A stretch of 22,182 nucleotides of DNA from a virus: positions 1 through 22,182 of IMG/VR virus record IMGVR_UViG_3300034998_000031; one strand, written 5' to 3'. The notes under the pieces are model-generated. The model saw only the letters and a program-made list of their open reading frames with translations, had not been told where the DNA came from and did no database searches. A program made the position numbers and the translations under genes. Positions 9,454 through 22,156 of the stretch are shown piece after piece (the stretch's first letter is position 1; the number at the start of each line of letters is the position of its first letter).

Positions 9454-9795
9454 TTATTCTTCTTCTACTTCCCCTTCGTTTTCCATCTCCAAAATTTCGT
9501 TAAGTTTTTTAGAGAATGCCTCCTTCATAACATTTATAGATGCTTCAAACTGCTCCGGTGTATGGTCTTTAGATTCTTTTAATGCATTTGCTGCGAGCGC
9601 TGCGACTAAAGCTGCATTTTCTTTCATATATGATTCTTCAGTGTGATCGTCGTGTACATCTTCAGCCCATTCTTTAGCTTCATTAACAGCTTCATTATAA
9701 CATTCGTTAAGTTTATCAGCTACTTTGTATTTGTCTTCAGTTGATACTACTTCTTCTGAATTATCCTCGTTCATGAATGATTCGAAAGTTTTCAT
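9454..9795 (-). CDS. Possible internally started 113-aa capsid-tagged protein
   Basis: In-frame ATG at 9795 (or 9819, adding MGNNNFNK) inside the hydrolase ORF would give a protein starting MKTFESFMNEDNSEE. This closely resembles the T4 internal-protein signal MKTYQEFIAEA. The rest is acidic and Ala/Glu-rich (NAALVAALAANALKESKDH), as expected for a small packaged protein. The 50 bases upstream hold an ATATATA element and A-rich leader repeats, like those before true starts in this genome. Not proven; it could be translated only as part of the fusion. Confidence 0.45.
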   Translation of the reverse strand: MKTFESFMNEDNSEEVVSTEDKYKVADKLNECYNEAVNEAKEWAEDVHDDHTEESYMKENAALVAALAANALKESKDHTPEQFEASINVMKEAFSKKLNEILEMENEGEVEEE

Positions 9796-10326
9796 TTTAT
9801 TAAAGTTATTGTTACCCATAGTTTTATTTGTTTTATTTGTTTTATATATTTCCGTGCTTTCTCCTAGTTTTAATGCCTTTGAAATTGATTCTATAAAAAC
9901 ATTTTCTGGAACTCTATGGCCACCTTTATATGACTCATATTTGAATACTCCATTTCCTTCAGATTTGAAGTACTTTTTAATATCTGAACCGTTTATAACT
10001 TTATCGTTATCTCCAAGAATTACTATATTTTTAGTACCACCTCCTTTGGGTTCTATAATAGCGGGATCAAATTTTCTACCAACAACTGCTGGGTTGAAAA
10101 TAACAGTAGGTATGTTGAGATGCATTCCTATAAGATATGCAAAATAACCTCCCATCGATGAGCCAATTATTAAATCTGAACCCTTACAACCTTTTAAAAC
10201 CTTATCGAAAACACCATCGTTATTATAATCTATTCTAGGTGCATATACTTTAAAGTTTTCGTTTAACCAATCAACCTTAGGTCCATGGTTTGGACTCTCT
10301 AGTCCATGTAAATACGATACTTTCAT
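9454..10326 (-). CDS. Alpha/beta hydrolase (YqiA-like) joined to a capsid-tag-like C-terminal module
   Basis: 290 aa. Residues 1-155 form a small serine esterase of the YqiA/UPF0227 type: YLHGLES at 5-11, nucleophile elbow G55-S-S57-M-G59, acid D108 in GDNDKV, and H137 in GGHRV, so the triad is complete. Residues 160-177 (IYKTNKTNKTMGNNNFNK) are translated from what looks like a leader: ATATATAAAACAAATA and two further A-rich repeats. From Met178 a 113-aa acidic helical module begins MKTFESFMNEDNSEE, like the tagged N-termini of other genes here. Either two genes have fused, or an internal start (9795 or 9819) makes a second protein. Start ATG 10326 follows the upstream stop by 1 nt. Confidence 0.7.
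   Translation of the reverse strand: MKVSYLHGLESPNHGPKVDWLNENFKVYAPRIDYNNDGVFDKVLKGCKGSDLIIGSSMGGYFAYLIGMHLNIPTVIFNPAVVGRKFDPAIIEPKGGGTKNIVILGDNDKVINGSDIKKYFKSEGNGVFKYESYKGGHRVPENVFIESISKALKLGESTEIYKTNKTNKTMGNNNFNKMKTFESFMNEDNSEEVVSTEDKYKVADKLNECYNEAVNEAKEWAEDVHDDHTEESYMKENAALVAALAANALKESKDHTPEQFEASINVMKEAFSKKLNEILEMENEGEVEEE
9826..9850 (-). promoter_or_regulatory. Promoter/leader-like sequence inside the hydrolase ORF
   Basis: Minus strand reads GGAAATATATAAAACAAATA then AAACAAATAAAAC and ATG at 9819. The tandem ACAAATAAA units are A-rich like leaders of other genes (compare AAAACAAATAAAATG before 7887). In frame they encode K-T-N-K-T-N-K-T. This supports an internal start. Confidence 0.35.
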
Positions 10327-10327
10327 A

Positions 10328-10927
10328 TTAAATTTTTGGTTTACCGATCATTATTTTAGTATGTGAAACTCCTCCCAATACTCTAGTGTACCATCCTTTT
10401 CCACTTCTTGATGGATCTGTAGGATTTTCGCCATGCCATTCGATTGCTTTACCCTTAAGTAATTCTTCTACATCTTCTTGGCTATCAACTGAAGGAACTT
10501 TAAATTTATCCATCATAATATCTGCAAGCTTTCCACTAACCTCACCATAATATCCAGGTTTTTTAAGTATATCAGACTTATGACTTAGATATTCTCTAGT
10601 ACTGTCTTTCTCTCCATCATGTCCAACTCCACTAAACTTAACTCCGTATTTTGTATTCTGTCCCCATATAATTAAATCTAAATCTGGAGAGCCGTGTAAA
10701 TCAACACCTTGCCAAAATGTCCAGTTCTTATCTGCAAAAACATCTTCTGGAGATTTAACTTTAGCATGACCACCCAACGTCGAGTATGCGATACTAATTA
10801 AATCAAAAAACTCTCCAGATAAATCTGCGTGCTTTCTAGGGTCTATCTTAGTCCATTTACCTTTTTTAGTTTTAAGAACTTCTCCGCTATTCTCATTGAT
10901 GAACTCTTCAAATAATTTAATCCTCAT
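10328..10927 (-). CDS. Unknown 199-aa protein with capsid-targeting-like N-terminus
   Basis: Begins MRIKLFEEFINENSGEV, which fits the T4 capsid-targeting propeptide pattern with a possible gp21-type cleavage after I10-N-E12. The body is globular and rich in Trp, Gly, His and Asp: FWQGVDLHGSPDLDLIIWGQ, KYGVKFSGVGHDGEKDST, GYYGEVSGKLADIM, KGWYTRVLGGVSHTKIMIGK. The spaced D/H residues look like an enzyme active site, but I cannot name the family. It is preceded by a good AAGATATATAG motif and lies directly before the hydrolase/tag gene, forming a two-gene unit that ends at the 9399 terminator. Confidence 0.65.
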   Translation of the reverse strand: MRIKLFEEFINENSGEVLKTKKGKWTKIDPRKHADLSGEFFDLISIAYSTLGGHAKVKSPEDVFADKNWTFWQGVDLHGSPDLDLIIWGQNTKYGVKFSGVGHDGEKDSTREYLSHKSDILKKPGYYGEVSGKLADIMMDKFKVPSVDSQEDVEELLKGKAIEWHGENPTDPSRSGKGWYTRVLGGVSHTKIMIGKPKI

Positions 10928-10945
10928 AATAGATATATTTTTATA

Positions 10946-10960
10946 GACTATATATCTTTA
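10946..10960 (-). promoter_or_regulatory. Candidate phage promoter (AAAGATATATAGTC)
   Basis: A clear copy of the AAGATATATAG motif, 20 nt upstream of the ATG at 10927, followed by an AT-rich leader. It overlaps the stop region of the upstream gene and would drive the 199-aa gene and the hydrolase/tag gene. Confidence 0.45.
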
Positions 10961-11365
10961 ATTCCAATCCTTTTCAAAAGTGTACCAATGGTCAGCACCT
11001 GCACAATCTCTCATACCATCTAGAATAATAGCATCAATTTCAATACCACTTAAACCATATACGAATGATTTAATAGCTCCTTCAAGTAAAAGTTCTTCAT
11101 GTTCTTCTATATTACACATACTTTTTTTGAATAATGTAGTACAGGCCTCAGATGTTATTGCCGAACATATTCTAACTAACACAGTTTCATTATCATTAAA
11201 CCTATAGCCACTGTGGTAGTCTCCTTCTGGAAACATATTGAAGATCTCGTCCTCAGTATGTCTCATTCTATAAAGAGATATTGCAGTCGTTAGAATTCCA
11301 CCAGCCACATTCTCTGCTGGTTTATAATATGAATTTCCGCTTGATTTGATATTTTCTACCTTCAT
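10958..11365 (-). CDS. Hypothetical protein
   Basis: 135 aa, not recognised. Mixed helices and strands with several cysteines (VRICSAITSEACTTLFKKSM, then C-N-I-E-E-H and DCAGADHWY near the end). Acidic overall. It starts at ATG 11365, one base after the upstream stop, so it is in the same operon as the two upstream unknowns that begin after the junction element at 12178. Function unknown. Confidence 0.6.
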   Translation of the reverse strand: MKVENIKSSGNSYYKPAENVAGGILTTAISLYRMRHTEDEIFNMFPEGDYHSGYRFNDNETVLVRICSAITSEACTTLFKKSMCNIEEHEELLLEGAIKSFVYGLSGIEIDAIILDGMRDCAGADHWYTFEKDWN

Positions 11366-11366
11366 C

Positions 11367-11831
11367 TTAGTTTTTATTTAGATTATTACGGTATACTACA
11401 GTACAATGTGCTATTCTTTCTAAACGAGCTGATGGATATGGAATCATTATACGTTCAGTGCATTCATACGAATTTCCAGTATATTCGTTCGTATGTTGGC
11501 TCTGTTTAGTTTTATTTAATTGATAAATTGAACGCACAAGTCTAGATGTCCAATAACATGAACGTTTATATGCTCTACGAACATAACCACTTTCATAACT
11601 TAGATAATCGCAATCAGCTACTGGGTCATAGAAACTTCGAGTTCCATTCTTTTCTTGGGTTTTTGAGGTCTGCTCTATGAGACCTAGAGATTTTAATTTT
11701 TGTGAATTCATATCTTTTAATTTCTCTGTTAGTTCTTGTAATGTTTCAATCAATGAAGTTTTTGTAACGTTTCCGTTTAAATACTGATTCAACTCGTCAA
11801 TTGTCGCGATAATTTCAAATCGATTTTCCAT
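11367..11831 (-). CDS. Hypothetical basic protein
   Basis: 154 aa from ATG 11831 (MENRFEIIATIDELNQYL). An upstream in-frame ATG at 11864 would overlap the previous gene by 23 nt, so I prefer the downstream start with a 10-nt gap. The first 55 residues look like a two-helix module (ETLQELTEKLKDMNSQKL). The second half is Tyr/Arg/Ser-rich (YVRRAYKRSCYWTSRLVRSI) and may be disordered or bind nucleic acid. Not recognised. Confidence 0.55.
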   Translation of the reverse strand: MENRFEIIATIDELNQYLNGNVTKTSLIETLQELTEKLKDMNSQKLKSLGLIEQTSKTQEKNGTRSFYDPVADCDYLSYESGYVRRAYKRSCYWTSRLVRSIYQLNKTKQSQHTNEYTGNSYECTERIMIPYPSARLERIAHCTVVYRNNLNKN

Positions 11832-11841
11832 GTCTATTATT

Positions 11842-12138
11842 TTAAAGGTTTTTGTATTTAGCAAACTTAGATTTCCAATATTCTACAACCTTTAAAGTTT
11901 CTCTACACGGTACTTTATATGCGTGCCATAATTCTTGAATGTTAATTGGACCGCATCCACCAACATCGTCTAAGAACTTACAAAATCCGTAAAGTTCATC
12001 ATATTCTCCTGATGTTAATGATTCTCCTATAAAATCGAATGATTCAGCATACTCACCGAATGTTTTTCCAAGGTTAAGTATTTGATATACTCTTAGTTCT
12101 GATAGGGGTTGAAATCGTTCTTTTGTTGTTGTAGCCAT
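11842..12138 (-). CDS. Hypothetical protein, first gene after junction element A
   Basis: 98 aa, not recognised. Helical, with SELRVYQILNLGKTFGEYAE, a CGPINIQELWHAYKVPC segment holding two cysteines, and a lysine-rich end (VEYWKSKFAKYKNL). ATG at 12138 lies about 40 nt downstream of the -10-like TTATATT, giving a short untranslated leader. It heads the operon running to 10958. Confidence 0.6.
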   Translation of the reverse strand: MATTTKERFQPLSELRVYQILNLGKTFGEYAESFDFIGESLTSGEYDELYGFCKFLDDVGGCGPINIQELWHAYKVPCRETLKVVEYWKSKFAKYKNL

Positions 12139-12177
12139 GATAATGAATGTTTAGTTAGTATCAATTTGTTATAAGTA

Positions 12178-12207
12178 AATATAATCATTTAGTTTGACAT
12201 AAAAAAA
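12178..12207 (-). promoter_or_regulatory. Junction promoter A (TTTTTTTATGTC-11-TTATATT)
   Basis: Copy A of a four-member family. Minus strand: TTTTTTTATGTC, 11 nt, TTATATTTA. The element shares its T-run with the terminator just upstream. It drives the gene starting at 12138. The same sequence recurs at 12901 (56 of 58 bases over the whole junction), 18229 and 19709. Confidence 0.6.
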
Positions 12208-12235
12208 CTTTTATGCACTTATTTTCAAAAAAGTT
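12201..12235 (-). terminator. AT-rich terminator-like hairpin A
   Basis: AACTTTT, 16-nt loop, AAAAGTT, then TTTTT on the minus strand. It lies downstream of the tRNA-Arg gene. The stem is weak (7 bp with a single G-C pair), so efficiency is uncertain, but the same arrangement recurs at 12924-12958. Confidence 0.45.
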
Positions 12236-12250
12236 ATTAACAATTTATTG

Positions 12251-12324
12251 TGAACCGGGAAGGATTCGAACCTTCACTCTACGTCTTAGAAGGACGTTGC
12301 ATTATCCAGTTATGCTACCGGTCC
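12251..12324 (-). tRNA. tRNA-Arg (anticodon UCU)
   Basis: Full cloverleaf by eye: acceptor GGACCGG/CCGGTTC with one G-U pair, D-stem GCAT/ATGC, anticodon stem ACGTC/GACGT around loop CTTCTAA (anticodon TCT), 5-nt variable loop, T-stem GAAGG/CCTTC with loop TTCGAAT, discriminator A. 74 nt, and CCA is not encoded. It reads AGA (and AGG), a codon favoured in this AT-rich genome. It lies 10 nt after the LPD29-like gene, so it is probably processed from that transcript. Confidence 0.92.
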
Positions 12325-12334
12325 AAGTGTAGAT

Positions 12335-12676
12335 TTACTTGACTACAAGTGGTTTATCCCAATCACCTACACTCAAGTGGAAGTACCAACCGACGTCGAA
12401 ATAATCAGTCATCGAATCTGAATTATCGTGATTACCTCTCATTGCTATGCTGGTTATATCCTCGAATAACTCTCGTTCCCTCAGTTCACTTAAGTTATAA
12501 TGGTTGATTTGACTATAGTCTCCGCAATCAAGGTCTCTAGGTGCTTCTAATATTGAGACGTTGACACACATATAGTCTTTTCCTCTAACTGAAATCTTCC
12601 ATCCGTCCTTTTTAGGGTACTTAGTTTTGATTTCTTTTCTGATTTCTTTTACCTGTTCTGGTGAAATATAAGCCAT
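12335..12676 (-). CDS. LPD29-domain-like protein
   Basis: 113 aa. The pattern WKISVRGKDYMCVNVSILEA, YSQINHYNLSE, then SMTDYFDVGWYFHLSVGDWD-KP resembles the large polyvalent protein-associated domain 29 (LPD29), a small domain found in phage and plasmid proteins of unknown biochemical role. Here it is free-standing. It starts at ATG 12676, one base after the preceding stop, and its stop is followed 10 nt later by tRNA-Arg. The family call is from memory of the motif. Confidence 0.6.
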   Translation of the reverse strand: MAYISPEQVKEIRKEIKTKYPKKDGWKISVRGKDYMCVNVSILEAPRDLDCGDYSQINHYNLSELRERELFEDITSIAMRGNHDNSDSMTDYFDVGWYFHLSVGDWDKPLVVK

Positions 12677-12677
12677 T

Positions 12678-12875
12678 TTATTGTTTTTTAAAGGTTAATG
12701 TACATAGAGATAACATAGCGCCTGAAAGCGATAGTATGCAAAGTGCCATCTCGTTTAATGGATCGCTAAACTTAATATAATTTAAGATGATTCCAGACCC
12801 TGTAAGATACACAACGAATAAACATGTTGCGAATGATAGGATGCTTTTGTAGTTGTTTGACAAGAAGTAGTTCAT
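12678..12875 (-). CDS. Small membrane protein with two transmembrane segments
   Basis: 65 aa. Two hydrophobic stretches (about residues 12-32, ILSFATCLFVVYLTGSGIIL, and 42-60, MALCILSLSGAMLSLCTLTF) joined by a short polar loop, with a basic C-terminus KKQ. Predicted to sit in the inner membrane as a hairpin. No family recognised. It heads the operon after junction element B. Confidence 0.6.
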   Translation of the reverse strand: MNYFLSNNYKSILSFATCLFVVYLTGSGIILNYIKFSDPLNEMALCILSLSGAMLSLCTLTFKKQ

Positions 12876-12900
12876 ATCGTTTGTTTTTTAATTATAGTTA

Positions 12901-12930
12901 AATATAATCAATTAGTTTGACATAAAAAAA
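12901..12930 (-). promoter_or_regulatory. Junction promoter B (TTTTTTTATGTC-11-TTATATT)
   Basis: Copy B, nearly identical to copy A. The -10-like TTATATTTA lies 25 nt before the ATG at 12875. It drives the membrane protein, LPD29-like gene and tRNA. Confidence 0.6.
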
Positions 12931-12958
12931 CTTTTGTGCACTTATTTTCAAAAAAGTT
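12924..12958 (-). terminator. AT-rich terminator-like hairpin B
   Basis: AACTTTT, 16-nt loop, AAAAGTT, TTTTT on the minus strand, beginning immediately after the stop codon of the NTase-like gene (12959). Same design as copy A. Confidence 0.45.
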
Positions 12959-14032
12959 TTAAATTAAATCACCGACAATCTTAATATAACTATCTATTAG
13001 ATTTCTAATCTTTTTGATAGCAGCATGTGCAGCTGGAGAATTAGCTTTGTCAAACTTAGGCGCATTATATGCCTTCATCATGGATTTCCTATACTCATAG
13101 AACACGTTATCCATAAACTCCTCTTTATTTCTCCACTTGATAATATCTCCTAACAGATTGTTATTTTCTAGAGTTTCTGCAAGACCTTTAATACTCTCAA
13201 CCATTCGAGGCATGTCAAGTCCTTTAACATCTACTCCTTTATATTTTTCAAGTCCTTTTGAAGGCTTCATGTCTCCTTCCTTTTGCATGTATTTAAAAAA
13301 GAATGTCGCGATATCATGTAAGAAATTATTGAAGTCCATCGAGATTACTTTCTCTTCAACTCCAGCTCGTTTAGACCATGATGATAATACAGAACCTTTA
13401 AACTTTCCTCTAACTCCTCTGTCTTGAATCGATAATCCTAACGTAGTTGCGAGAGCAGTATACATATTACCTATAACGAATCCTTTAACATCTCTGATTG
13501 GTGTATATCTGTCAAGAGCCCATTCTTCGTAAGGTGGATGTGTAATAACCATATCAGCTTGAACAAACTTCTCAAATCCTTCGTCTTCTATTCTAAATAA
13601 AACTTTAACACTAGATAATGAAGACATTCCGAGAGTTTCCTCACGATCAACGTAGCTTAAATTAGCAAGTTCTAAGAATTTGAAAAGTTCTCCGTTATAT
13701 GTTTTAATAGACTCAACCTCATCTTTTCTAGTTCCAACACCCTCTATTTGTAATAATGGGTAAGATACTAAATAATCAATATCTCCATATAACTTGTCTG
13801 GTTGATTCACAATATCATCCTCGTACCAAGATCCTGATCCAATTGCTTTAATAAACTTAAGAGCTGGAAGACCTACAGAATCTAAATATTTATTAAATTC
13901 CTTATCAAATATCTTAATCTGATCGTCTACTAATTTTAGTATCTTAGGTGTTAGCTTTGTTTCTTGTGTTTTGACTGAAGACCAGCCGCCTTCATTTAAG
14001 AATTCATTTAGTGTAATAATCTTTCTAGACAT
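12959..14032 (-). CDS. Nucleotidyltransferase-fold protein with capsid-targeting-like N-terminus
   Basis: 357 aa. The Pol-beta-type nucleotidyltransferase core is visible: G65-S-G-S68-W in KAIGSGSWYEDD, paired metal ligands D84 and D86 in YGDIDYLVS, and a third Asp, D160, in FVQADMVI. The C-terminal 180 residues are helical. The N-terminus, MSRKIITLNEFLNEGGWSS, carries L12-N-E14 followed by GG, matching a T4 gp21-type cleavage site. An NTase could modify nucleotides, tRNA or protein; the substrate is unknown. A GATATATAG motif lies 21 nt upstream of the start. The tag suggests delivery in the virion. Confidence 0.7.
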   Translation of the reverse strand: MSRKIITLNEFLNEGGWSSVKTQETKLTPKILKLVDDQIKIFDKEFNKYLDSVGLPALKFIKAIGSGSWYEDDIVNQPDKLYGDIDYLVSYPLLQIEGVGTRKDEVESIKTYNGELFKFLELANLSYVDREETLGMSSLSSVKVLFRIEDEGFEKFVQADMVITHPPYEEWALDRYTPIRDVKGFVIGNMYTALATTLGLSIQDRGVRGKFKGSVLSSWSKRAGVEEKVISMDFNNFLHDIATFFFKYMQKEGDMKPSKGLEKYKGVDVKGLDMPRMVESIKGLAETLENNNLLGDIIKWRNKEEFMDNVFYEYRKSMMKAYNAPKFDKANSPAAHAAIKKIRNLIDSYIKIVGDLI

Positions 14033-14046
14033 TTGCGAGTATTTAT

Positions 14047-14730
14047 TTATACTCTATATATCAAGCTTATATTTTTGTTAGCATCCATATATTCTTTGAC
14101 CTCTGATAAACTAAATGGTCTAAATTCTGGATGACAATCGATTCCAATTTCAAAGCTTGTTCCATTTGGACTTATACCTTCAACGATTTCATTATTTGCT
14201 AAAGATTCAATAGCTTCCATATTACCGTCATCTAATAATTGTCTTAAAATCTTAGGATGTATATAATTCTCTAAGTTCCCATGAGTATGTCCAAATAACA
14301 TCCAGTTGCCATACATTGAACCATTCCAGGATTTCATCGGGTAATGTGACATAATAATTTTAGTCTGAATCTCGTCCAACCAAAGTTCCCTGTAATATGA
14401 AACAGAACTGAAGTGATTATGTACATCTACATTCTTAGTGAATTCTCTATCATGATTCCCAAGAATTAAATGTATTTCTTTACAATTGATCCTTTCTCTG
14501 AATTCTCCGATAGTTTGTGCAGATCCAAACGACCAATCACCTAAGTGATACAGGACATCATCCTCTCCGACAACACTATTTATATTATTAACTATAGTAT
14601 CATTCATTTCTTGTAAAGAATCAAAGTCCCTACAACCTGACGTTCTCTGCCAAGTTGTTAGGGACTTTATAATATTTCTGTGGTTATAGTGAGTGTCACT
14701 AGTGAACCAAATCTTTTTATCTTTCTGCAT
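14047..14730 (-). CDS. Calcineurin-like metallophosphoesterase
   Basis: 227 aa. All signature motifs of the two-metal phosphoesterase fold are present: D12-T-H14 in FTSDTHYNH, G64-D65-W in YHLGDWSFG, G91-N-H-D94, H129 in SHYPM, and G147-H-T-H150-G. Such phage enzymes hydrolyse phosphomonoesters or diesters (RNA ends, cyclic nucleotides or protein phosphates); the substrate is not evident. The C-terminal segment FEIGIDCHPEFRPFSL is typical of the phage/bacterial YfcE-like relatives. ATG 14730, 29 nt after the PhoH gene. Confidence 0.85.
   Translation of the reverse strand: MQKDKKIWFTSDTHYNHRNIIKSLTTWQRTSGCRDFDSLQEMNDTIVNNINSVVGEDDVLYHLGDWSFGSAQTIGEFRERINCKEIHLILGNHDREFTKNVDVHNHFSSVSYYRELWLDEIQTKIIMSHYPMKSWNGSMYGNWMLFGHTHGNLENYIHPKILRQLLDDGNMEAIESLANNEIVEGISPNGTSFEIGIDCHPEFRPFSLSEVKEYMDANKNISLIYRV
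14052..14065 (-). promoter_or_regulatory. Candidate phage promoter (TTGATATATAGAG)
   Basis: The GATATATAG motif, 21 nt before the ATG at 14032, overlapping the 3' end of the phosphoesterase gene. The downstream AGTATAAATAAATAC also resembles a T4-type late TATAAATA box, so the precise promoter core is ambiguous. Confidence 0.45.
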
Positions 14731-14759
14731 ATAGATTATATGTTGGAATCAGATAAAGT

Positions 14760-15473
14760 TTAATCGTTTTCAGATTTCCACTTATCGTATTTGTTTACGA
14801 TCTTCTTAAGAATTTCAGCTCTTACGATATCATCTTCACCGAATTCAAAGCACTGAACTCCATCAACGCTATCTATCATTTTAATAAAACCAGGAAGTCC
14901 AGCACTTTTCTTTGGAATATCATACTGACTAACATCTCCTGTAATTAATACCTTAGATTTCTTACCCATTCTAGTAATAAATAGCATTAATTGTTTGAAC
15001 GTACTGTTTTGAGCTTCGTCAAGAATCATTAAAGAATCATCAAAAGTATCTCCTCTCATGTACGCTAAAGGTTTAAAAACAATAATCTCTCGTTCTATTA
15101 ATCTCTCAGTTATTTCATCTCCTACTATTTTCTTAAGGTTTGAAATATAAGATTGCATATATGGATCTATCTTATCTTCAATTCCTCCAGGTAAAAATCC
15201 TAGCTTCTCACCAGACTCTTGAATAGGCTTACATAAAATTACTTGTTTTATTTTTCTTTCTGCTAATAATTTAAGTGCAGTGTAGCATGCTGTAAAGGTT
15301 TTACTAGTACCTGCTGGGCCATGACAGAATGTTACATCATTACTTTCAATTGTTCTAGAATACCTTTCTTGGGATTGTCTAAGCTTAACGTGTTGAATAT
15401 GCTCTGGCTTGACTCTAATATGTCTTGTTGTTGGTACTTTTATTTCTGGTTTACTTTGTTTTTTCTTAGTCAT
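14760..15473 (-). CDS. phoH: PhoH-like P-loop ATPase
   Basis: 237 aa. Walker A G52-P-A-G-T-S-K-T59, Walker B LMILD152-E-A-Q155-N, and the sensor segment LITGDVSQYDIP define the PhoH family (helicase-like ATPases linked to RNA metabolism). KPIQESGEKLGFLPGG and DKIDPYM are also family-typical. Phage copies are common, but their role is unsettled. The N-terminal 25 residues are basic and flexible. It starts at ATG 15473, after an A-rich leader with no Shine-Dalgarno sequence. Confidence 0.9.
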   Translation of the reverse strand: MTKKKQSKPEIKVPTTRHIRVKPEHIQHVKLRQSQERYSRTIESNDVTFCHGPAGTSKTFTACYTALKLLAERKIKQVILCKPIQESGEKLGFLPGGIEDKIDPYMQSYISNLKKIVGDEITERLIEREIIVFKPLAYMRGDTFDDSLMILDEAQNSTFKQLMLFITRMGKKSKVLITGDVSQYDIPKKSAGLPGFIKMIDSVDGVQCFEFGEDDIVRAEILKKIVNKYDKWKSEND

Positions 15474-15869: not shown

Positions 15870-16154
15870 TTAACATAATCTATCTTTAATTTTATCCATT
15901 ATCTTTTTAAGCTCTGCACATTTTTCGTAGTCTTCTCCGTTTTCAAAGAAATCCAATACATGCGATATTGCTTCTATTTTTTTAGAAGTAGATGTTAAGC
16001 TATTGACAACACCATGTTCATTATTTACTATTGATGAATAAACAACATCCATCATTAGTTCTCTCGAGTTATCTCGCATATCATCTACGTATTTCATAGA
16101 CTCCCAGTTATCATCTTCTTCGAATTCGAAGTCCATTTCTTCATCACCAATCAT
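15870..16154 (-). CDS. Small acidic protein with UVR-like EDYEKC motif (2 of 3)
   Basis: 94 aa. The N-terminal 28 residues are strongly acidic (GDEEMDFEFEEDDN). The C-terminus is a helical hairpin VLDFFENGEDYEKCAELKKI with EDYEKC at 74-79, similar to the UVR motif that mediates protein-protein contacts in UvrB/UvrC and McsA. The 88-aa protein at 17933 has the same architecture. It lies 2 nt downstream of the DnaJ-like gene, so co-expression is likely. A chaperone or protease adaptor role is only a suggestion. Confidence 0.6.
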   Translation of the reverse strand: MIGDEEMDFEFEEDDNWESMKYVDDMRDNSRELMMDVVYSSIVNNEHGVVNSLTSTSKKIEAISHVLDFFENGEDYEKCAELKKIMDKIKDRLC

Positions 16155-16156
16155 AA

Positions 16157-16963
16157 TTAAATTTTATTTTTGTCTATTAGTTTTATTTGTTCAACTAAAC
16201 CATATTGATCATCGTTAAGTTCAGTCTTCATAACGTTCAATTTTACCATTAAATTACCCCAACCATCTGATTTATATATTGGAATCCCCTGTCCCTTAAT
16301 TCGTAATACTTTACCATTATACGAACCCTTAGGTATGTCGACTTTGATCGAGTAGAATGGAGTAGTTATATTAACTGAAGTACCTAATATTAAATCATAG
16401 AATGGTAAATCTACGTCGGTCCAGATATCGCTACCATTTACTATTATATCTAAGCTAGGTAAAACATGACACGTTACTATTATATCTCCTTTAGGAGCAT
16501 TTGAGTTCATGGGGTGTGCGCCGCCTCTTCCTTTTAATTTTAACTTATTTCCATTACCAATTCCTTTCGGGATCTTCAGGCTGAATCTAGATTGACCAGT
16601 ATCAATAAGCTTATCTGAACCATAGTATACGTCGTTAAGTGTAATTTGGATAGATACTCGAATATCTGGTCCTTTTGCTCTACTTCCAAATGCACCATCA
16701 AACATACTTGCAAAATCCGGACTATTTCTAAATCGCTCGAAGAATTCATTATTCATACCCCCACTCATTTTTCGAGCAGTATCATATTTTTTACGGCTTA
16801 GCTCATCCCCCAAATGCTCATAAGCTTCAGATATTTCTTTAAACTTATCAGCATTACCAGATTCTTTATCAGGGTGGTGTTGTTTCGCTAATTTACGGTA
16901 TGCTTTTTTAATAGCATCTTGAGTTGCGTTCTCATCTATCTCGAGAGTATTGTAGTAGGACAT
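16157..16963 (-). CDS. DnaJ-like co-chaperone (CbpA type, no zinc finger)
   Basis: 268 aa. J-domain at 1-65 (SYYNTLEIDENATQDAIKKA..., H30-P-D32) that would stimulate host DnaK. A short GM-rich linker follows, then the two-lobed C-terminal substrate domain from about residue 98 (GPDIRVSIQITLNDVYYGSD, LKIPKGIGNGNKLKLKGRGG, IPKGSYNGKVLRIKGQG). The CxxCxGxG zinc repeats of DnaJ proper are absent, making it CbpA-like. A phage copy may redirect host Hsp70 to virion assembly. ATG at 16963 follows the small upstream gene by 1 nt; AAAGGA nearby could act as a Shine-Dalgarno but lies in coding sequence. Confidence 0.9.
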   Translation of the reverse strand: MSYYNTLEIDENATQDAIKKAYRKLAKQHHPDKESGNADKFKEISEAYEHLGDELSRKKYDTARKMSGGMNNEFFERFRNSPDFASMFDGAFGSRAKGPDIRVSIQITLNDVYYGSDKLIDTGQSRFSLKIPKGIGNGNKLKLKGRGGAHPMNSNAPKGDIIVTCHVLPSLDIIVNGSDIWTDVDLPFYDLILGTSVNITTPFYSIKVDIPKGSYNGKVLRIKGQGIPIYKSDGWGNLMVKLNVMKTELNDDQYGLVEQIKLIDKNKI

Positions 16964-16964
16964 A

Positions 16965-17126
16965 CTATTTGTCCTTTTTATTCAGATTCTTTTTTTCTAA
17001 GATTCTCTTCTCTCTAACTCGTTTCATTGATTGACGAGCTTCATTAACTTCACGCTTTTCTTTATTTTCATAACAGTCAGCTATTCGAGTTAATTGCAAT
17101 AATATGTTTTCTAATATATCTTCCAT
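16965..17126 (-). CDS. Small basic coiled-coil-like protein
   Basis: 53 aa from ATG 17126 (MEDILENILLQLTRIADCYE). An in-frame ATG at 17159 would add 11 residues (MTQTNKDIYIN), but those bases contain AAAGATATATATATTA, a promoter-like motif, so the shorter start is preferred. One amphipathic helix is followed by a very basic tail (RQSMKRVREKRILEKKNLNK). Not recognised. It is packed against the DnaJ-like gene. Confidence 0.5.
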   Translation of the reverse strand: MEDILENILLQLTRIADCYENKEKREVNEARQSMKRVREKRILEKKNLNKKDK

Positions 17127-17127
17127 A

Positions 17128-17144
17128 TTAATATATATATCTTT
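17128..17144 (-). promoter_or_regulatory. Candidate promoter motif (AAAGATATATATATTA)
   Basis: GATATATA-type motif directly before the ATG at 17126, upstream of the small basic protein and DnaJ-like gene. It lies in a purely AT-alternating stretch, so chance occurrence is a real possibility. Confidence 0.3.
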
Positions 17145-17176
17145 GTTTGTTTGTGTCATCTTACTCTTGTTTTAAA

Positions 17177-17545
17177 TCACGAATAACACGAACTAACCAC
17201 TATAGTTCTTACTAGGCGAACTCTAAGAGAACTATCCTTACCGATGTTGCTCGAGTCGCCATTAATGAAGTAGATATACCTCGCGACGTTACTATTGAAC
17301 TCCGAGGACGACCAATACTTGTCATCTTCCATCTGTAACATATCTTCACATAGATACATCAACCTAAGTTCATCTATCGTAGGTAACCTCCATCCATCAT
17401 CCCCACCTTCCATAGCTTCTTCCCACATAAACTCTCCTATGTCTGTCGAGTAAACTTCAAAGTTAAACTCATTGAACTTAATTTGCTTGTATGTTGGTTC
17501 CTCCTTAACATACCACTCCTCGTTAATCTTGATTCTCTTTTTCAT
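17177..17545 (-). CDS. DUF1566/C-type-lectin-fold-like protein
   Basis: 122 aa. W52-R-L-P-T56 followed by IDELRLMY, then Y77-W-S-S-S-E82 and the closing strand LRVRLVR at 107-113, is the hallmark of DUF1566 (Lcl C-terminal) proteins with a C-type-lectin/FGE-like fold. These usually bind surfaces or ligands. The start MKKRIKINEEWYVKEEPTY loosely resembles the tagged N-termini in this window. The end adds TIVVSSCYS. There is no reverse transcriptase or template repeat nearby, so a retroelement target is not supported. Confidence 0.65.
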   Translation of the reverse strand: MKKRIKINEEWYVKEEPTYKQIKFNEFNFEVYSTDIGEFMWEEAMEGGDDGWRLPTIDELRLMYLCEDMLQMEDDKYWSSSEFNSNVARYIYFINGDSSNIGKDSSLRVRLVRTIVVSSCYS

Positions 17546-17548
17546 ATC

Positions 17549-17734
17549 TTAGTGTTTTAGTTCTTTGATTCTATGCTTTAAAGCATTGATAGGGACTATC
17601 CCCGTTTCTTTCTCTATTGAAAGTATTAACTCCAACTCCTCGATAACTCTTTGGTTAGCGTAAGACTCAATCATCTCGATACCTGCTTCATCGTCTGTAT
17701 ATACACCTAATGGTGTTTGTATTGACTTTTCCAT
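17549..17734 (-). CDS. Hypothetical small protein
   Basis: 61 aa, not recognised. Begins MEKSIQTPLGVYTDDEAGIE and continues as two helices (SYANQRVIEELELILSIEKE, INALKHRIKELKH). It sits between close neighbours (3-nt and 1-nt gaps), so it is part of the 18199-14047 operon. Confidence 0.55.
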   Translation of the reverse strand: MEKSIQTPLGVYTDDEAGIEMIESYANQRVIEELELILSIEKETGIVPINALKHRIKELKH

Positions 17735-17735
17735 C

Positions 17736-17930
17736 TTACTCTTGTTTTAGTTCTTGACTTATTTCTGCTATAGTCTTTTCACCACATAAATACTGGCCAA
17801 ATAAATTTAAAGCGTATTGCTTAGCATATTGTTCCATTGCACTGTGTATTAAATCTTCATGAATGCTAACAGTTTCTCCATCACAATCAAAATACTCATA
17901 AGTATCTAGTATTTCTTCAGCTAATTTCAT
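17736..17930 (-). CDS. Hypothetical small helical protein
   Basis: 64 aa from ATG 17930 (MKLAEEILDTYEYFDCDGET), 2 nt after the upstream TGA. The in-frame ATG at 17987 would overlap the upstream gene by 55 nt and add a Cys-rich start (MCKNPKGCETYCGR), which is less likely. Mostly helical, with AMEQYAKQYALNLFGQYLCG and IAEISQELKQE. The pattern resembles small phage proteins expressed early, but no family is recognised. Confidence 0.5.
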   Translation of the reverse strand: MKLAEEILDTYEYFDCDGETVSIHEDLIHSAMEQYAKQYALNLFGQYLCGEKTIAEISQELKQE

Positions 17931-17932
17931 AA

Positions 17933-18199
17933 TCAAATAGTTAGCTCTCCCGCAATAAGTTTCACAGCCTTTAGGATTTTTGCACATTTCTCGTACTCTT
18001 CAGTTTCAGTGAAATGCTCTATCATATCGCTTAGGGTCTTTTCAATTTCTTTCTGATTATCCGCACCATGAAAATTACTAAAATCAATATCACCAGATGC
18101 GATAACGTTATAGTTCTTCCTAGCTAAAGTATCTTTTATTTTAGATTGTATCTCTTCTGAGTACATCTCTTCTTCAAACTCCATCATTTCATCCTCCAT
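17933..18199 (-). CDS. Small acidic protein with UVR-like EEYEKC motif (3 of 3)
   Basis: 88 aa. Acidic N-terminus (MEDEMMEFEEEMYSEE) and a C-terminal helical hairpin MIEHFTETEEYEKCAKILKA with EEYEKC at 67-72. The layout matches the 94-aa protein at 15870, so the two are likely paralogues about 2 kb apart. It is the first gene after junction promoter C, with ATG 18199 about 30 nt past the -10-like box. Confidence 0.6.
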   Translation of the reverse strand: MEDEMMEFEEEMYSEEIQSKIKDTLARKNYNVIASGDIDFSNFHGADNQKEIEKTLSDMIEHFTETEEYEKCAKILKAVKLIAGELTI

Positions 18200-18228
18200 A
18201 GTATGTGTGCTTTAATTTGTTATAGTTA

Positions 18229-18258
18229 AATATAAACATTTTAATTGACATAAAAAAA
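18229..18258 (-). promoter_or_regulatory. Junction promoter C (TTTTTTTATGTC-11-TTATATT)
   Basis: TTTTTTTATGTC, 11 nt, TTATATTTAACTATAA on the minus strand, sharing its T-run with the terminator at 18252-18278. It drives the operon starting at 18199. Confidence 0.6.
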
Positions 18259-18278
18259 TCTGAGGTGATTAAATCACC
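18252..18278 (-). terminator. Terminator hairpin overlapping a stop codon
   Basis: Minus strand GGTGATTTAATCACC (perfect 6-bp stem, 3-nt loop), then 5 nt and TTTTTTT. The hairpin includes the last codon and TGA stop of the zinc-ribbon-like gene, so ribosome arrival at the stop could affect folding. Confidence 0.65.
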
Positions 18279-18603
18279 ATTTCTTTTTAGGACACTCTTT
18301 ACCCTTAGCAAAAACCATCGCGGGGAATTGACAGCCACATTGATTGCATCTGTAACCCTTTACAGCTTCCTCTTCCTTATGTTCTTTAGGATTAAATTTA
18401 GCTCGTACTTTTTGTTTTCCACCACCTGGCAGAATTTTATCAATGAATGTAAATGTACCTGACTCAGTCAAGTGTGGGCATGTTTTACATATTGTAGCTC
18501 TTTCTTCTGCTAATTTTTTTACATCTTCCTTTAATGCGTCATAGTTTGAAAATGCAGTTAGGTAGTTTCCCCAACCATCCTTAATGTTTTTAAATATTCC
18601 CAT
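18274..18603 (-). CDS. Zinc-ribbon-like protein
   Basis: 109 aa. Two cysteine clusters: C39-x2-C42-P-H44 and C86-x2-C89-x-C91 with C104, enough for one or two zinc sites. The N-terminus MGIFKNIKDGWGNYLTAFSN is amphipathic. The middle loop is basic (GGGKQKVRAKFNPKEHK). Several phages carry proteins with this N-terminal helix plus CxxC arrangement; function unknown. ATG 18603 lies inside the 30-codon upstream gene (14-nt overlap). Confidence 0.65.
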   Translation of the reverse strand: MGIFKNIKDGWGNYLTAFSNYDALKEDVKKLAEERATICKTCPHLTESGTFTFIDKILPGGGKQKVRAKFNPKEHKEEEAVKGYRCNQCGCQFPAMVFAKGKECPKKKW

Positions 18604-18682
18604 AATAATCTTTTATTTCTTCATGCGTTAATGTTGCTGTTTCATTCTCTAACGGAAACAAATCGTTATAATAATCGTACAT
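18590..18682 (-). CDS. 30-codon small ORF upstream of zinc-ribbon-like gene
   Basis: ATG 18682 to TAA at 18590 encodes MYDYYNDLFPLENETATLTH then EEIKDYYGNI. It fills an otherwise empty gap, overlaps the next start by 14 nt, and is preceded by AAGATATATAAC only 4 nt upstream. The acidic, aromatic composition is like other small genes here. It could be a real microprotein or a coupled leader peptide. Confidence 0.45.
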   Translation of the reverse strand: MYDYYNDLFPLENETATLTHEEIKDYYGNI

Positions 18683-18684
18683 AT

Positions 18685-18698
18685 GTTATATATCTTAG
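18685..18698 (-). promoter_or_regulatory. Candidate phage promoter (TAAGATATATAAC)
   Basis: AAGATATATA motif just upstream of the ATG at 18682, with the exonuclease gene's TAA stop forming its first bases. It would drive the small ORF and the zinc-ribbon-like gene. Confidence 0.4.
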
Positions 18699-19438
18699 AA
18701 AGGAATCTCATCCTTAGTTATTATTTGCATGCCTGATAACTTAAGCATAACGTTCATTGTAGCTTCTACATCTCCTTCACAATACTGTTTAATTTCTTCT
18801 ATTTTACCATTCCAATATGATGTGCTAACATCTCCAGCCTTCATAGCTTCTTTAGGTGAAGGTATATTTAGTAAGTCACATATTAAACTTAGAGAAGCTC
18901 CATTCCACCCACCAAACTTCCAAATATCGTAAGTGTCTAATAGACAGTTCTCCCATGGTTTAAGTTTCTGTAGTTGCAATTGATTTGGAATGCTTACTCC
19001 ATTTATTATAGAGCGTTTCAATATATATGGAATGTCAAATCCTTTTATATTATGACCTATAATTTTAATATTTGGCTTAGCACTAAATATTTTAACCATC
19101 GTGCCCATAAAATCTTTAAGAACCTCAGCTTCATCGTCGCCATAAAATGACTTAATCTTAGGAACTGCAGTAATACCATCAGGATATGTAATTTGTCCTA
19201 TTGATATTACCAAAGTTTTACCAAACTCAGGAAATAAAGCAGCGTTAAGAGGATATAACTCAGTATCTGACATATCTCTATATTCTTCTGAGTCTTTTCG
19301 TAAATATTTAGCCTTTCTCGCCCAATGTTCAATTCCGTTCTGACCTATAATATCTATAAATCCGTCTAAGTCTTTCGCAGCTGAACATGTTTCAATATCT
19401 ATGAACAGCATGCCTTTTAAGTCTGATGTATTATACAT
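18695..19438 (-). CDS. DnaQ-like 3'-5' exonuclease
   Basis: 247 aa. Complete DEDDy motif set: D14-I-E16 in MLFIDIETCS, D135 in IGHNIKGFDIPYIL, and Y219-C-E-G-D223 in IKQYCEGDVEAT. This resembles the PolB-associated 3'-5' exonuclease family found as separate proteins in phages. The stretch WENCLLDTYDIWKF GGW is the usual region between motifs II and III. It likely acts in DNA repair or degradation rather than as polymerase proofreader, since no polymerase domain is attached. ATG 19438 overlaps the upstream gene by 8 nt. Confidence 0.85.
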   Translation of the reverse strand: MYNTSDLKGMLFIDIETCSAAKDLDGFIDIIGQNGIEHWARKAKYLRKDSEEYRDMSDTELYPLNAALFPEFGKTLVISIGQITYPDGITAVPKIKSFYGDDEAEVLKDFMGTMVKIFSAKPNIKIIGHNIKGFDIPYILKRSIINGVSIPNQLQLQKLKPWENCLLDTYDIWKFGGWNGASLSLICDLLNIPSPKEAMKAGDVSTSYWNGKIEEIKQYCEGDVEATMNVMLKLSGMQIITKDEIPF

Positions 19439-19667
19439 TATCTGAATGTTTTGGTTTATCGTGTCTAAGTTTAAATATACTAACAGGATATTTAGTACCG
19501 TATCTGTCCTCGACTGTGAACCAAGGCTCTCCGTAGTGAGCGGTTAACTTATCACAGGATTTTAATAATTTACCATACCTTGCGGATCCAGCGAACCAGA
19601 ACCAATAGAATTCACCCATCTTAGGTTTCTTAACATAAATCTTTTGAATCTTATTTTTCTTTGACAT
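19431..19667 (-). CDS. Hypothetical basic small protein
   Basis: 78 aa, not recognised. Lys-rich N-terminus, then an aromatic beta-rich core (GEFYWFWFAGSARYGKLLKS, EPWFTVEDRYGTKYPVSIFK) suggestive of a small SH3-like barrel. First gene after junction promoter D, overlapping the exonuclease start by 8 nt. Confidence 0.55.
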   Translation of the reverse strand: MSKKNKIQKIYVKKPKMGEFYWFWFAGSARYGKLLKSCDKLTAHYGEPWFTVEDRYGTKYPVSIFKLRHDKPKHSDNV

Positions 19668-19708
19668 AGTATTATATTGGGTTTACACTGTTTGTTTATT
19701 ACTTAGCT

Positions 19709-19738
19709 AATATAAACAAAAAACCCGACATAAAAAAA
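19709..19738 (-). promoter_or_regulatory. Junction promoter D (TTTTTTTATGTC-11-TTATATT)
   Basis: Same motif and the same 11-nt spacing as the other three copies, although the intervening bases differ (GGGTTTTTTGT). The ATGTC part is inside the 3' arm of the terminator hairpin. Confidence 0.55.
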
Positions 19739-19746
19739 TGCCGGGT
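19718..19746 (-). terminator. Rho-independent terminator with promoter motif in its stem
   Basis: Minus strand ACCCGGCAT-TTTTTT-ATGTCGGGT followed by TTTTTTG. The 9-bp stem has one G-U pair. It follows the gene ending at 19775. This is the strongest terminator among the four junction elements. Confidence 0.8.
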
Positions 19747-19774
19747 GATTTATTTTCAAAAAGTTTTGAAATTA

Positions 19775-20002
19775 TTAAATATCGAAAGGGGATTGATGTT
19801 CTTTTATGCTTCTAATATGAGTATATGAAGCAAAGTTTACGCAAACCTCAACATATCCTCCAGAAACTGAAAACGGAACTAAATCTCCATTTAACCAATA
19901 GTCTGGCATGTAATCAGCTCGTCCATTTATAAAGTCGAACATTGCATCTACTTCCATATTGTGTACGTAGATTCTCATATGCATGTCCTTCAGATCTTCC
20001 AT
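19775..20002 (-). CDS. Hypothetical small protein
   Basis: 75 aa, not recognised. Strand/helix mix with MRIYVHNMEVDAMFDFINGR and a second strand set GGYVEVCVNFASYTHIRSIK. It starts at ATG 20002, just after AAAGATATATAAC, and ends before a strong terminator, so it may be a single-gene transcript. Confidence 0.55.
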   Translation of the reverse strand: MEDLKDMHMRIYVHNMEVDAMFDFINGRADYMPDYWLNGDLVPFSVSGGYVEVCVNFASYTHIRSIKEHQSPFDI

Positions 20003-20006
20003 TATA

Positions 20007-20020
20007 TGTTATATATCTTT
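20007..20020 (-). promoter_or_regulatory. Candidate phage promoter (AAAGATATATAAC)
   Basis: AAGATATATA motif 6 nt before the ATG at 20002, overlapping the end of the homing endonuclease gene. Nearly identical to the copy at 18687. Confidence 0.4.
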
Positions 20021-20746
20021 AAATTTACAATTACTGAAATGGTATCTCGTCATAAGATTACGATCTCCAATCTTATTACAATAAGGGCACTCAGCCTTAG
20101 GTCTTTGTTTACTTGCTGATTTTGACATTTTTTCTTTTGTTTCTTTGCTAAATGTTCGTCCAATCGCAGCAGCTTTCATTTTATTTATTGTTCCTTCAGA
20201 AAAGCAGCCGGGCTTCCCTTTATTCCAGGCTTCCTGACTTCCAGTAAGTCCTTTGTTCCATGGAGCTTTTCCTCTCATCCCATTACCAATAGAATATAAC
20301 TGCTCTTCAGAATAAACACCAGTTTTACCCTTATTCCATGGTTCTAATCCATTAACATATAATGACCTCATCGTACTTGATTGTTTTTCCTTAGCAATCG
20401 GAGTCTGTTTAATTCCAACGTTCCAAGCTTCTTTACCAGAGCCGTCCCATCCTGTTGAGGTTTGCTTGCTTAAATTATAAAAGTTTTCGTTAATTCCAAC
20501 ATCAAATTTTTTATGGAGCTCTATCTCCATAAATATAGCATCTTCTCGAGTTTCAAATATGCTTACAACTTTGTATTTGTAATTTTGTGGATTGTTCTTC
20601 TGGTCTTCTCTAAACTCTTTATCTGATGAGCTTGAAAAGTATTTGAATCCGATGTCCTTTTTAGGATTTATATCGGATGAACGAACACCATAGTAGTATT
20701 TCTTGAGTTCGATGTTTGTGATTCGATAAACGTAATGATATTTCAT
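20009..20746 (-). CDS. GIY-YIG homing endonuclease with WNKG repeats and zinc finger
   Basis: 245 aa. GIY-YIG domain at about 1-95 (HYVYRITN...KKYYYGVRSS, IGFKYFSSSSDKEF, MEIELHKKF). The middle holds four WN-x-G units (EAWNVG, EPWNKG, APWNKG, EAWNKG), then one NUMOD3-like unit FSKETKEKMSKSAS. A C-terminal zinc finger C220-x2-C223-x12-H236-x3-C240 ends with MTRYHFSNC, as in the copy at 8551. The ends are conserved and the DNA-reading middle differs, so the two probably cut different sites. A 12-bp inverted repeat abuts its start codon. Confidence 0.85.
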   Translation of the reverse strand: MKYHYVYRITNIELKKYYYGVRSSDINPKKDIGFKYFSSSSDKEFREDQKNNPQNYKYKVVSIFETREDAIFMEIELHKKFDVGINENFYNLSKQTSTGWDGSGKEAWNVGIKQTPIAKEKQSSTMRSLYVNGLEPWNKGKTGVYSEEQLYSIGNGMRGKAPWNKGLTGSQEAWNKGKPGCFSEGTINKMKAAAIGRTFSKETKEKMSKSASKQRPKAECPYCNKIGDRNLMTRYHFSNCKFKDI

Positions 20747-20800
20747 AAGTTAAGGTTATTTTAAGTATCGAAGTATAAGTAATCTTACTAACCTTAACTT
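20747..20800 (-). promoter_or_regulatory. 12-bp inverted repeat in the endonuclease 5' leader
   Basis: AAGTTAAGGTTA (minus strand, 20789-20800) pairs perfectly with TAACCTTAACTT (20747-20758). The 30-nt loop carries TACTT three times. The second arm ends at the base before the ATG, so the folded leader would put the start codon at the foot of a 12-bp stem. A known parallel is the translational hairpin of T4 I-TevI. Confidence 0.6.
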
Positions 20801-20837
20801 TCAGAAACGGTAATTACTCCGATGTCCTTATCTTCTA

Positions 20838-20852
20838 TACTATATATCTTAG
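20838..20852 (-). promoter_or_regulatory. Candidate phage promoter (CTAAGATATATAGTA)
   Basis: Exact AAGATATATAG, 93 nt upstream of the endonuclease ATG and upstream of the inverted repeat. Transcription from here would include the whole hairpin in the leader. Confidence 0.45.
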
Positions 20853-20869
20853 AAATATAAATGATTAAA

Positions 20870-21880
20870 CTATTTAAGTTCCTTTATCCTGTGTTCAGAT
20901 TTACGGATAGATTCAGCGTTATGTTTCATATTAATCTTATGCTCTGCGTTTATGTATTCTACTGTAATATATTCTTTGAATTCTAAGGGAAGTTCAGTCT
21001 TATAAAAATCCTCATAGACTGTAATATAAACCATGGCCATTTTTGCTGGACCAAGACCACTACTGCTATTTATTTCAGCAACCCATAGCTTTCCATCAGT
21101 ATCTATCATAATATCGATAGACCATAAACCTAATTTAATTTCCTTTCTAATCTCTTCAGATATTTTCAAAACGTCATCTAAAAAGTCTAGCTTATCTAAG
21201 TCTTGGTCCACATATACAAACTCCGTCTGTTCGTCTGTTTCTTTGTCTCTCATTTCGTTGTCAGACTTAGAAATTCTTTCATTTACTAAGCAAATCTTAT
21301 CGTTCATCATCAAAACTCTAAATTCTTGCACCAAATCTTTAGCTTCAGAGAAATTATCAAATTCCAATTCACTTTTTACAATATCTTCGTACTTATCAAA
21401 GATTTCGATACCAATTCCAGAGTGTTCTCCATCAGGTTTACCAATCACAGGAAAATTAAGTTTCTCAGCGTCTTTGACAGAGTATACTGATTTTGGTAGC
21501 CACCAAGAACCATCAAACATTTTATAGAACTCAGATTTATTACCACTCATTTTCATTTGAGATGGAATGTTATACATAACATCTTCCTTCACCTTGTACT
21601 TTTTAAGGAAGTCAAACGCTTCGGGTTTATTTCCACCATAATAAATTATTGGAAGTGCTGGATTAACGTCTAAGTTCTTCCCGTGATCACCTACAGCATA
21701 AAATGCATTAAATAAGTTATCTAAACAATTATCATTAATGTCTCCATAGATTCTCTTGTTATTCTTACCTGTCAAACCTTCGATTTTCTCACCAGCTAGT
21801 AAGAAATTAATCTTTTGAGTATATTCCTCAAATTTAGCCTCATTAAGAGACCACTCTTCAAATAGTTTTACTTTTTTCAT
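20870..21880 (-). CDS. ATP-grasp-fold protein with capsid-targeting-like N-terminus
   Basis: 336 aa. The ATP-grasp core is visible: FPVIGKPDGEHSGIGIEIFD (143-162, flexible nucleotide-covering loop), VQEFR at 184-188, and metal ligands D256 in WSIDIMID plus E269 and N271 in LWVAEINSSSG. This is like RimK/glutathione-synthetase-type ligases that join an amine to a carboxylate; the substrate is unknown. Before it, residues 1-20 read MKKVKLFEEWSLNEAKFEEY, with L12-N-E14|A fitting a T4 gp21-type propeptide cleavage. The first 9 residues and 33 nt around the start are shared with the upstream gene. The C-terminus is charged and helical. Confidence 0.75.
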   Translation of the reverse strand: MKKVKLFEEWSLNEAKFEEYTQKINFLLAGEKIEGLTGKNNKRIYGDINDNCLDNLFNAFYAVGDHGKNLDVNPALPIIYYGGNKPEAFDFLKKYKVKEDVMYNIPSQMKMSGNKSEFYKMFDGSWWLPKSVYSVKDAEKLNFPVIGKPDGEHSGIGIEIFDKYEDIVKSELEFDNFSEAKDLVQEFRVLMMNDKICLVNERISKSDNEMRDKETDEQTEFVYVDQDLDKLDFLDDVLKISEEIRKEIKLGLWSIDIMIDTDGKLWVAEINSSSGLGPAKMAMVYITVYEDFYKTELPLEFKEYITVEYINAEHKINMKHNAESIRKSEHRIKELK

Positions 21881-22156
21881 AATTATTTTCTAGAATCAAA
21901 CGCCTTATCCCAAATCTCAGGCCAAGTACCAGTGTCTATCTTATAATAGCTAACAATATCAGCGATTTTCTCATCAGCATCTGATGTGTAGCTTTCAACA
22001 TCTTCACCAGTTACATCTTTAAAATTCTTAACAATAAATTCAGCCACTTTTTTGTCTGATGGTCTACGACCGATAGCCTTAACAACCTTAGCAACAGTGT
22101 TATATTTACCGATAGCTTCATATTCTTCGAATAGTTTTACTTTTTTCATAATTATT
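21855..22156. repeat. 33-bp direct repeat at two gene starts (21855-21887 and 22124-22156)
   Basis: The two 33-nt segments differ at one base and include the A/T leader TAATTATG plus the codons for MKKVKLFEE. They mark duplication of a start-plus-signal cassette in front of unrelated coding regions. A looser version lies at the 10927 start. Confidence 0.85.
21883..22149 (-). CDS. Small protein sharing the MKKVKLFEE N-terminus
   Basis: 88 aa, not recognised beyond its start. The first nine residues are identical to those of the ATP-grasp protein downstream, although no clear L/I-x-E site follows (MKKVKLFEEYEAIGKYNTV). The rest is a small helical domain: VAKVVKAIGRRPSDKKVAEF, IVKNFKDVTGEDVESYTSDA, KIADIVSYYKIDTGTWPEIW. 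Its stop lies 2 nt before the ATP-grasp start, so the two are co-transcribed. A packaged protein or a partner of the ligase is possible. Confidence 0.6.
   Translation of the reverse strand: MKKVKLFEEYEAIGKYNTVAKVVKAIGRRPSDKKVAEFIVKNFKDVTGEDVESYTSDADEKIADIVSYYKIDTGTWPEIWDKAFDSRK

Follow-up and report, generated by a model that had tools for sequence, protein, structure and literature searches.

The window analysed here, a 22,182-bp virus fragment (IMGVR_UViG_3300034998_000031) of a jumbo-type T4-like phage with all genes on the minus strand, encodes several proteins that share a short N-terminal peptide, hereafter the leader, in front of different folds. Three copies are the starts proper of open reading frames (ORFs), namely MRIKLFEEFINEN of a 199-aa GNAT-like protein (10927), MSRKIITLNEFLNEGG of a 357-aa protein (14032) and MKKVKLFEEWSLNEAK of a 336-aa ATP-grasp protein (21880), and a fourth, MKTFESFMNEDN (9795), lies at residue 178 of a 290-aa ORF (Table 1). 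The first-pass annotation had reported these four copies, each with L/I/M-N-E at residues 8-14, and both observations were recovered, with [IL]NE or MNE ending at residues 12 (10927), 14 (14032), 14 (21880) and 10 (9795). According to PMC9026906, residues 4 and 7 of the T4 internal protein IPIII govern targeting, and residues 8 and 10 govern processing. The corresponding residue pattern (Y4, F7, I8, E10) is matched in full by the copies at 10927 and 9795; that at 14032 has L for the first aromatic residue, and that at 21880 has one residue inserted.

Table 1. Leader-bearing genes and leader peptides of the window. A slash marks the predicted cut; PSSM, position-specific scoring matrix; CTS, capsid-targeting sequence.
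Feature	Coordinates	Strand	Remarks
290-aa ORF	9454..10326	minus	UPF0227-like alpha/beta hydrolase over the first ~155 residues; internal leader and C-terminal domain follow by in-frame fusion
Internal leader MKTFESFMNE/D	9766..9795	minus	10-residue layout as in T4 CTS; possible internal start
199-aa GNAT-like protein	10328..10927	minus	best PSSM score in window; leader MRIKLFEEFINE, then GNAT-like fold
Leader MRIKLFEEFINE/N of GNAT-like protein	10892..10927	minus	F6-x-x-F9-I10-x-E12 parallels T4 Y4-x-x-F7-I8-x-E10
357-aa protein, leader MSRKIITLNEFLNE	12959..14032	minus	second best PSSM score
Leader MSRKIITLNEFLNE/G of 357-aa protein	13991..14032	minus	12.2 bits, p=0.0011
336-aa ATP-grasp ligase-like protein, leader MKKVKLFEEWSLNE	20870..21880	minus	Pfam, PHROG; third best PSSM score
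Leader MKKVKLFEEWSLNE/A of ATP-grasp protein	21839..21880	minus	11.5 bits, p=0.0017
88-aa protein, start MKKVKLFEEYEAIG	21883..22149	minus	PSSM p=0.10

The leaders of the window were scored with a PSSM trained on 19 leaders of LR756500, a 462-kb metagenomic phage (consensus MKYIKEYEEFLLEA), with the data of the window excluded and internal methionines as the null. Among the window's 38 ORFs the starts at 10927, 14032 and 21880 ranked first, second and third, with 16.9 bits (p=0.0002) for the first, the values of Table 1 for the other two and 4.9 bits for the next ORF, and the peptide at 9795, at 14.3 bits, was top among the 136 internal methionines. The same three starts again headed the 47 ORFs of an overlapping 26-kb contig (IMGVR_UViG_3300000141_000002, of which 17,818 bp were matched to the window with 3 mismatches and which runs 8.3 kb beyond its right end), standing more than 5 bits above the next; 3 matches exceeded the threshold where 0.15 would be expected (Poisson p=5e-4). 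When applied to 441 candidate starts of T4, this matrix placed IPII and IPIII (MKTYQEFIAEA) as the best two. A strict T4 regular expression gave only one match on the 26-kb contig, which was not significant, and for this reason the PSSM was used. The density of [LI]xE near N-termini of that contig was likewise not significant (p=0.22), because the tripeptide alone is common.

In an AlphaFold2 model of the 199-aa protein (predicted local distance difference test score, pLDDT, 82) residues 1-16, which include the leader, are disordered, and the top 50 Foldseek matches of the model in the PDB are all GNAT acetyltransferases or GNAT-domain proteins. The best E value is 3e-4 and template-modelling scores are 0.4-0.5, which therefore give the fold class only; acetyl transfer is a putative activity suggested by that fold. 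Relatives of this protein occur in many other records, where the form of the leader is kept and its sequence changed: KLFEEFINE in the window, KLFEDFINE in G003, KLFEEYVDE in G009 and KLYEEFANE in G004, MKSLNYFLKE in G006 and G007, GYRAWLTE in G008 and ISEYLEEKINE in Tenacibaculum phage pT24. The residues directly after the Glu vary too, and two relatives carry an inserted stretch; an alignment of six GNAT sequences proved too divergent to serve in a collection scan. The 485-kb phage LR745208, in which neither a gp23 nor an S77 gene was detected, keeps the domain behind an entirely different N-terminus; this begins MVTLRSKLVRLAHENPALRPHLLPLLKEA (L108:2929-3636) and is a possible targeting peptide of a different kind. 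The gene for the GNAT-like protein adjoins that for the UPF0227-like hydrolase in the window (9454-10927) and in L108, L109, L122, L124, L126 (record G007), L127 and L128; one of these lineages is a huge phage in which no T4-type head genes were detected, and we read the two genes as a conserved functional pair.

The protein starting at 21880 matches Pfam Dala_Dala_lig_C (1e-6) and the PHROG family of ribosomal protein S6 glutaminyl transferase (2e-12), and by these profile matches is an ATP-grasp protein closest to ribosomal S6-modifying and D-Ala-D-Ala ligases; peptide ligation is a putative activity, suggested by fold or motif. Its leader reads LFEEWSLNE in the window, and LFETWVLNE and SFEQWSITE in the orthologues of L003 and G003, and homologues elsewhere begin MKSLKYFINE in G007 and MKFIKPYEEFKIND in LR756500, so that on these comparisons the enzyme bears each phage's own leader. 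For the 357-aa protein no significant match was obtained in Pfam, PHROG, PADLOC, PDB or phage searches, and PADLOC gave no useful match to the leader-bearing cargo as a whole. A GSGS...DID motif makes the 357-aa protein a probable nucleotidyltransferase, with nucleotidyl transfer a putative activity read from that motif; a single-sequence AlphaFold2 model of this protein reached a pLDDT of 33 and was set aside.

The first half of the 290-aa ORF matches Pfam UPF0227 (1.6e-6). Its second half is a separate gene in G004 and G009, beginning MINKMKMYE(A/V)FVGEED, and in G003 is joined to an unrelated upstream protein via ...FNKMKTFESFVSEN, such that NKMK(T/M)(F/Y)E(S/A/V)F is kept in three contexts around the internal leader. 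Because this half stands alone in two records and is fused elsewhere in a third, position 9795 is, on this comparative evidence, the start region of a mobile unit of leader plus domain, and its separate translation is a possibility. The first-pass annotation had also named two further starts as related, of which one is plausible and the other unsupported. The 88-aa protein at 22149 has its first 9 residues in common with the adjacent 21880, in near-identical DNA, and lacks the NE site; it thus has the targeting half of a leader without the canonical cleavage half, and LFE could be an L-x-E site. It is a plausible leader-bearing protein because its homologue in G007 (75751-76329, E=5e-6) begins MKSLNEFLNEA. 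The start at 17545 (MKKRIKINEEWYVKEE, Lcl_C domain) was rejected (PSSM p=0.20), and looks like a different family, because a similar start (RIKI...WYVKE) is found on another G007 protein (148877).

Tail and baseplate genes lie in the left part of the window (tail-sheath/baseplate PHROG matches), and for a 564-aa protein of this region the nearest named phages are LR756500, Bacteroidota jumbo phages and Sphingomonas phage PAU, the Bacteroidota-phage relatives being Tenacibaculum PTm1 and pT24, Chryseobacterium MA9V-1 and the smaller Flavobacterium MaF61. An S77 prohead protease (PF03420), the gp21 family of T4, is encoded by PTm1, LR756500, PAU, pT24, MA9V-1, G006 and G007, and weakly, below the curated cut-off, by LR756501 and LR745206. 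Such a gp21-like protease, which the first-pass annotation had proposed to search for, accompanies the window's cargo genes in G006, G007, LR756500 and pT24 (weakly in LR756501 and LR745206), and in relatives that keep the downstream domains the orthologues retain the T4 determinants of the peptide, in the form aromatic-x-x-aromatic-[LI]-x-E, while its exact sequence changes; both outcomes speak for the first-pass reading. Capsid genes of the gp23 type are found in all phages with an S77 match, the weak ones included, and in MaF61, the S77 gene adjoins a gp23-type gene where examined, and the N-terminal propeptides of the relatives' capsid proteins that were examined contain [LI]-x-E/[SN]-like sites. 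In PAU a cut at LME64/N65 predicts 521 mature capsid residues, within one residue of the 520 of 585 given from N-terminal sequencing in PMC5646251. Starts of the form MKx[ILMV]xx[LMI]YE are found on 14 of about 295 PAU ORFs, including 4 of the 5 annotated as 'internal capsid protein' (gp142, gp154, gp199 and gp270; hypergeometric p=1.6e-5). Ten other PAU leader proteins carry no such note, and the notes were for this reason probably not derived from the leader.

Leader repertoires are large in several relatives. In G007, a 172-kb record whose 199-aa gene has about 51% identity, some 24 genes counted by eye begin MKS[YL]KxF[LI]NE[AS], with 14 PSSM matches against 0.61 expected and two leader genes inside the head-gene cluster; these leaders share with T4 IPIII a layout of 10 residues, Y4-x-x-F7-L8-x-E10. 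LR756500 has about 35 leader proteins; its PSSM counts are partly circular, 19 of its leaders being the training set, and a looser separate pattern gave 29 matches against 5.4 expected. The looser leader pattern fits 71 N-termini of the 635-kb LR745206 against about 9 expected. Some 60 proteins of this phage (L153-L184) begin MK[YH][LI][KR]xF(N/E)(E/S), with a possible site at F-N-E/S rather than L/I-x-E. Leader proteins of relatives include leucine-rich-repeat (LRR) proteins, PNK3P, a DUF2201 VWA-metallopeptidase and an ATP-grasp R2K protein, and many have no family. Runs of six to eight consecutive leader genes with unrelated bodies are seen at L023 (LR756500 312,960-318,055) and L140 (G007 149-156 kb).

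It is very probable that the shared peptide is a T4-type capsid-targeting propeptide on proteins that are loaded into the head and probably injected. The packaging suggested in the first-pass annotation draws support from the cross-phage PSSM, from a phage-specific consensus that persists on orthologues, from the protease and gp23-type genes of relatives and the L/I-x-E sites in their capsid proteins, and from the association with annotated PAU proteins, all of them read from sequence, and these point to head loading and cleavage in this phage. Injection of the cargo is proposed by analogy with T4 and is a less secure conclusion than the propeptide reading. During prohead assembly the N-terminal 10-14 residues would bind the scaffold core via spaced hydrophobic or aromatic residues, and the core-bound leader would draw the attached protein into the prohead, where the phage S77 protease would cut behind the Glu of [LI]-x-E and release the cargo; DNA would then be packaged around it. 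At infection the cargo would probably exit with the DNA and act in the host ahead of early gene expression or in the course of it.

Several observations weigh against the propeptide reading. The gp21-family (S77) protease and head genes are absent from the 22-kb window and the 26-kb contig, because both are fragments that lack the head region. No PSSM-detectable leader set was found in PTm1, pT24 or MaF61, though PTm1 and pT24 have the protease. The PAU 'internal capsid protein' labels are GenBank notes without a stated basis, and gp70, annotated as internal, has no leader. Lastly, some leaders of LR756500 lack a clean site (KIND, ILDE), as does that of the 199-aa orthologue in G004 (FANE, without L/I at P3). 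The protease unseen in the fragment, and the sites missing in 22149, KIND and FANE, would suit a helix that stays uncleaved and docks elsewhere in the virion or at a different site of assembly, such as the inner capsid surface, the scaffold or a replication compartment, with the likeness to [LI]-x-E incidental. We consider this unlikely, since divergence among orthologues has left the Glu and the aliphatic residue two positions ahead of it in place while the middle residue varies (SLNE, VLNE, SITE; FINE, YVDE, FLKE, WLTE), and L/I-x-E sites occur in the capsid propeptides of the same phages.

A chance or low-complexity likeness of short N-termini would agree with [LI]xE alone not being enriched in the 26-kb contig, and is contradicted by the cross-phage test, in which the PSSM of another phage ranks the named starts first, with 3 matches for 0.15 expected, and by the excess of leaders in G007 and, by the looser pattern, in LR745206; it is highly improbable. 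We give as little credence to the leader genes being paralogues that inherited a functionless common N-terminus. The adjacent 21880 and 22149, with their shared first 9 residues, are what such descent would leave; against it, the downstream folds are unrelated (GNAT-like, ATP-grasp and probable nucleotidyltransferase here, LRR and PNK3P in relatives), no homology among the downstream domains appeared in the searches made, and homologous cargo bears a different leader in each phage.

The leader resembles the CTS of T4 (IPI-IPIII, gp21) in being a 10-14-residue N-terminal peptide on otherwise unrelated proteins, in placing aromatic-x-x-F-[LI]-x-E where the targeting and processing residues have been mapped, and in its company, here in relatives, of a gp21-family protease and a gp23-type capsid. 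Unlike the T4 CTS, each phage has its own consensus, the repertoires exceed the few internal proteins of T4, the cargo includes recognisable enzyme folds, and one copy lies inside a fused ORF. In the phiKZ-like giants (phiKZ, 201phi2-1, SPN3US), as described in PMC9026906 and PMC5694885, a gp21-like protease cleaves a large set of head proteins behind a Glu, and these proteins are ejected together with the DNA; there, in contrast to the short T4-type leader and [LI]-x-E of the present phages, the phiKZ motif is S/A-x-E and several SPN3US propeptides exceed 100 residues. PAU gp142, gp154, gp270 and gp199 begin MKxxxxLYE(AK)LNE or a variant, which aligns with K-L-F-E-x-F-I-N-E of the window, the consensus of the PAU leader being different. 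In a partial literature survey we found no publication that treats the PAU leader as a signal for targeting, and no account of tag sets of this kind in phages of the Bacteroidota type or in huge phages.

Elsewhere in the window, two paralogous homing-endonuclease-like ORFs (MKYHYVYRITN...) at 8551-9351 and 20009-20746 on the minus strand, of which the first matches PHROG_314, were not seen at the corresponding places in L003 and G003. A tRNA-Arg (TCT anticodon) at 12250-12324 sits between small ORFs, and a DnaJ-like (J-domain) protein at 16157-16963 lies close to a PhoH-like ATPase at 14760-15473. Neither a near-identical phage nor a close DNA relative of the window was found in the phage collection.

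On this reading the CTS would extend to phages of the Bacteroidota type and to huge phages, with a phage-specific consensus and repertoires of about 14 (PAU), 24 (the 172-kb relative), 35 (the 462-kb phage) and perhaps 60 proteins (the 635-kb phage). On balance we favour, with some reserve, the view that the leader is a phage-specific address tag tied to the prohead protease, which would load dozens of enzymes as an interchangeable injected arsenal, each enzyme gaining a new tag on moving between phages. Which proteins enter the cell with the DNA of giant or jumbo phages is largely an open question, and a tag readable from sequence would make the delivered set predictable from the genome. Some of the tagged proteins are uncharacterised and have an enzyme fold (in the window GNAT-like, ATP-grasp ligase-like and probable nucleotidyltransferase; in relatives LRR, PNK3P and VWA-metallopeptidase), and these are good candidates for factors of host takeover, or of counter-defence, in the first minute of infection.

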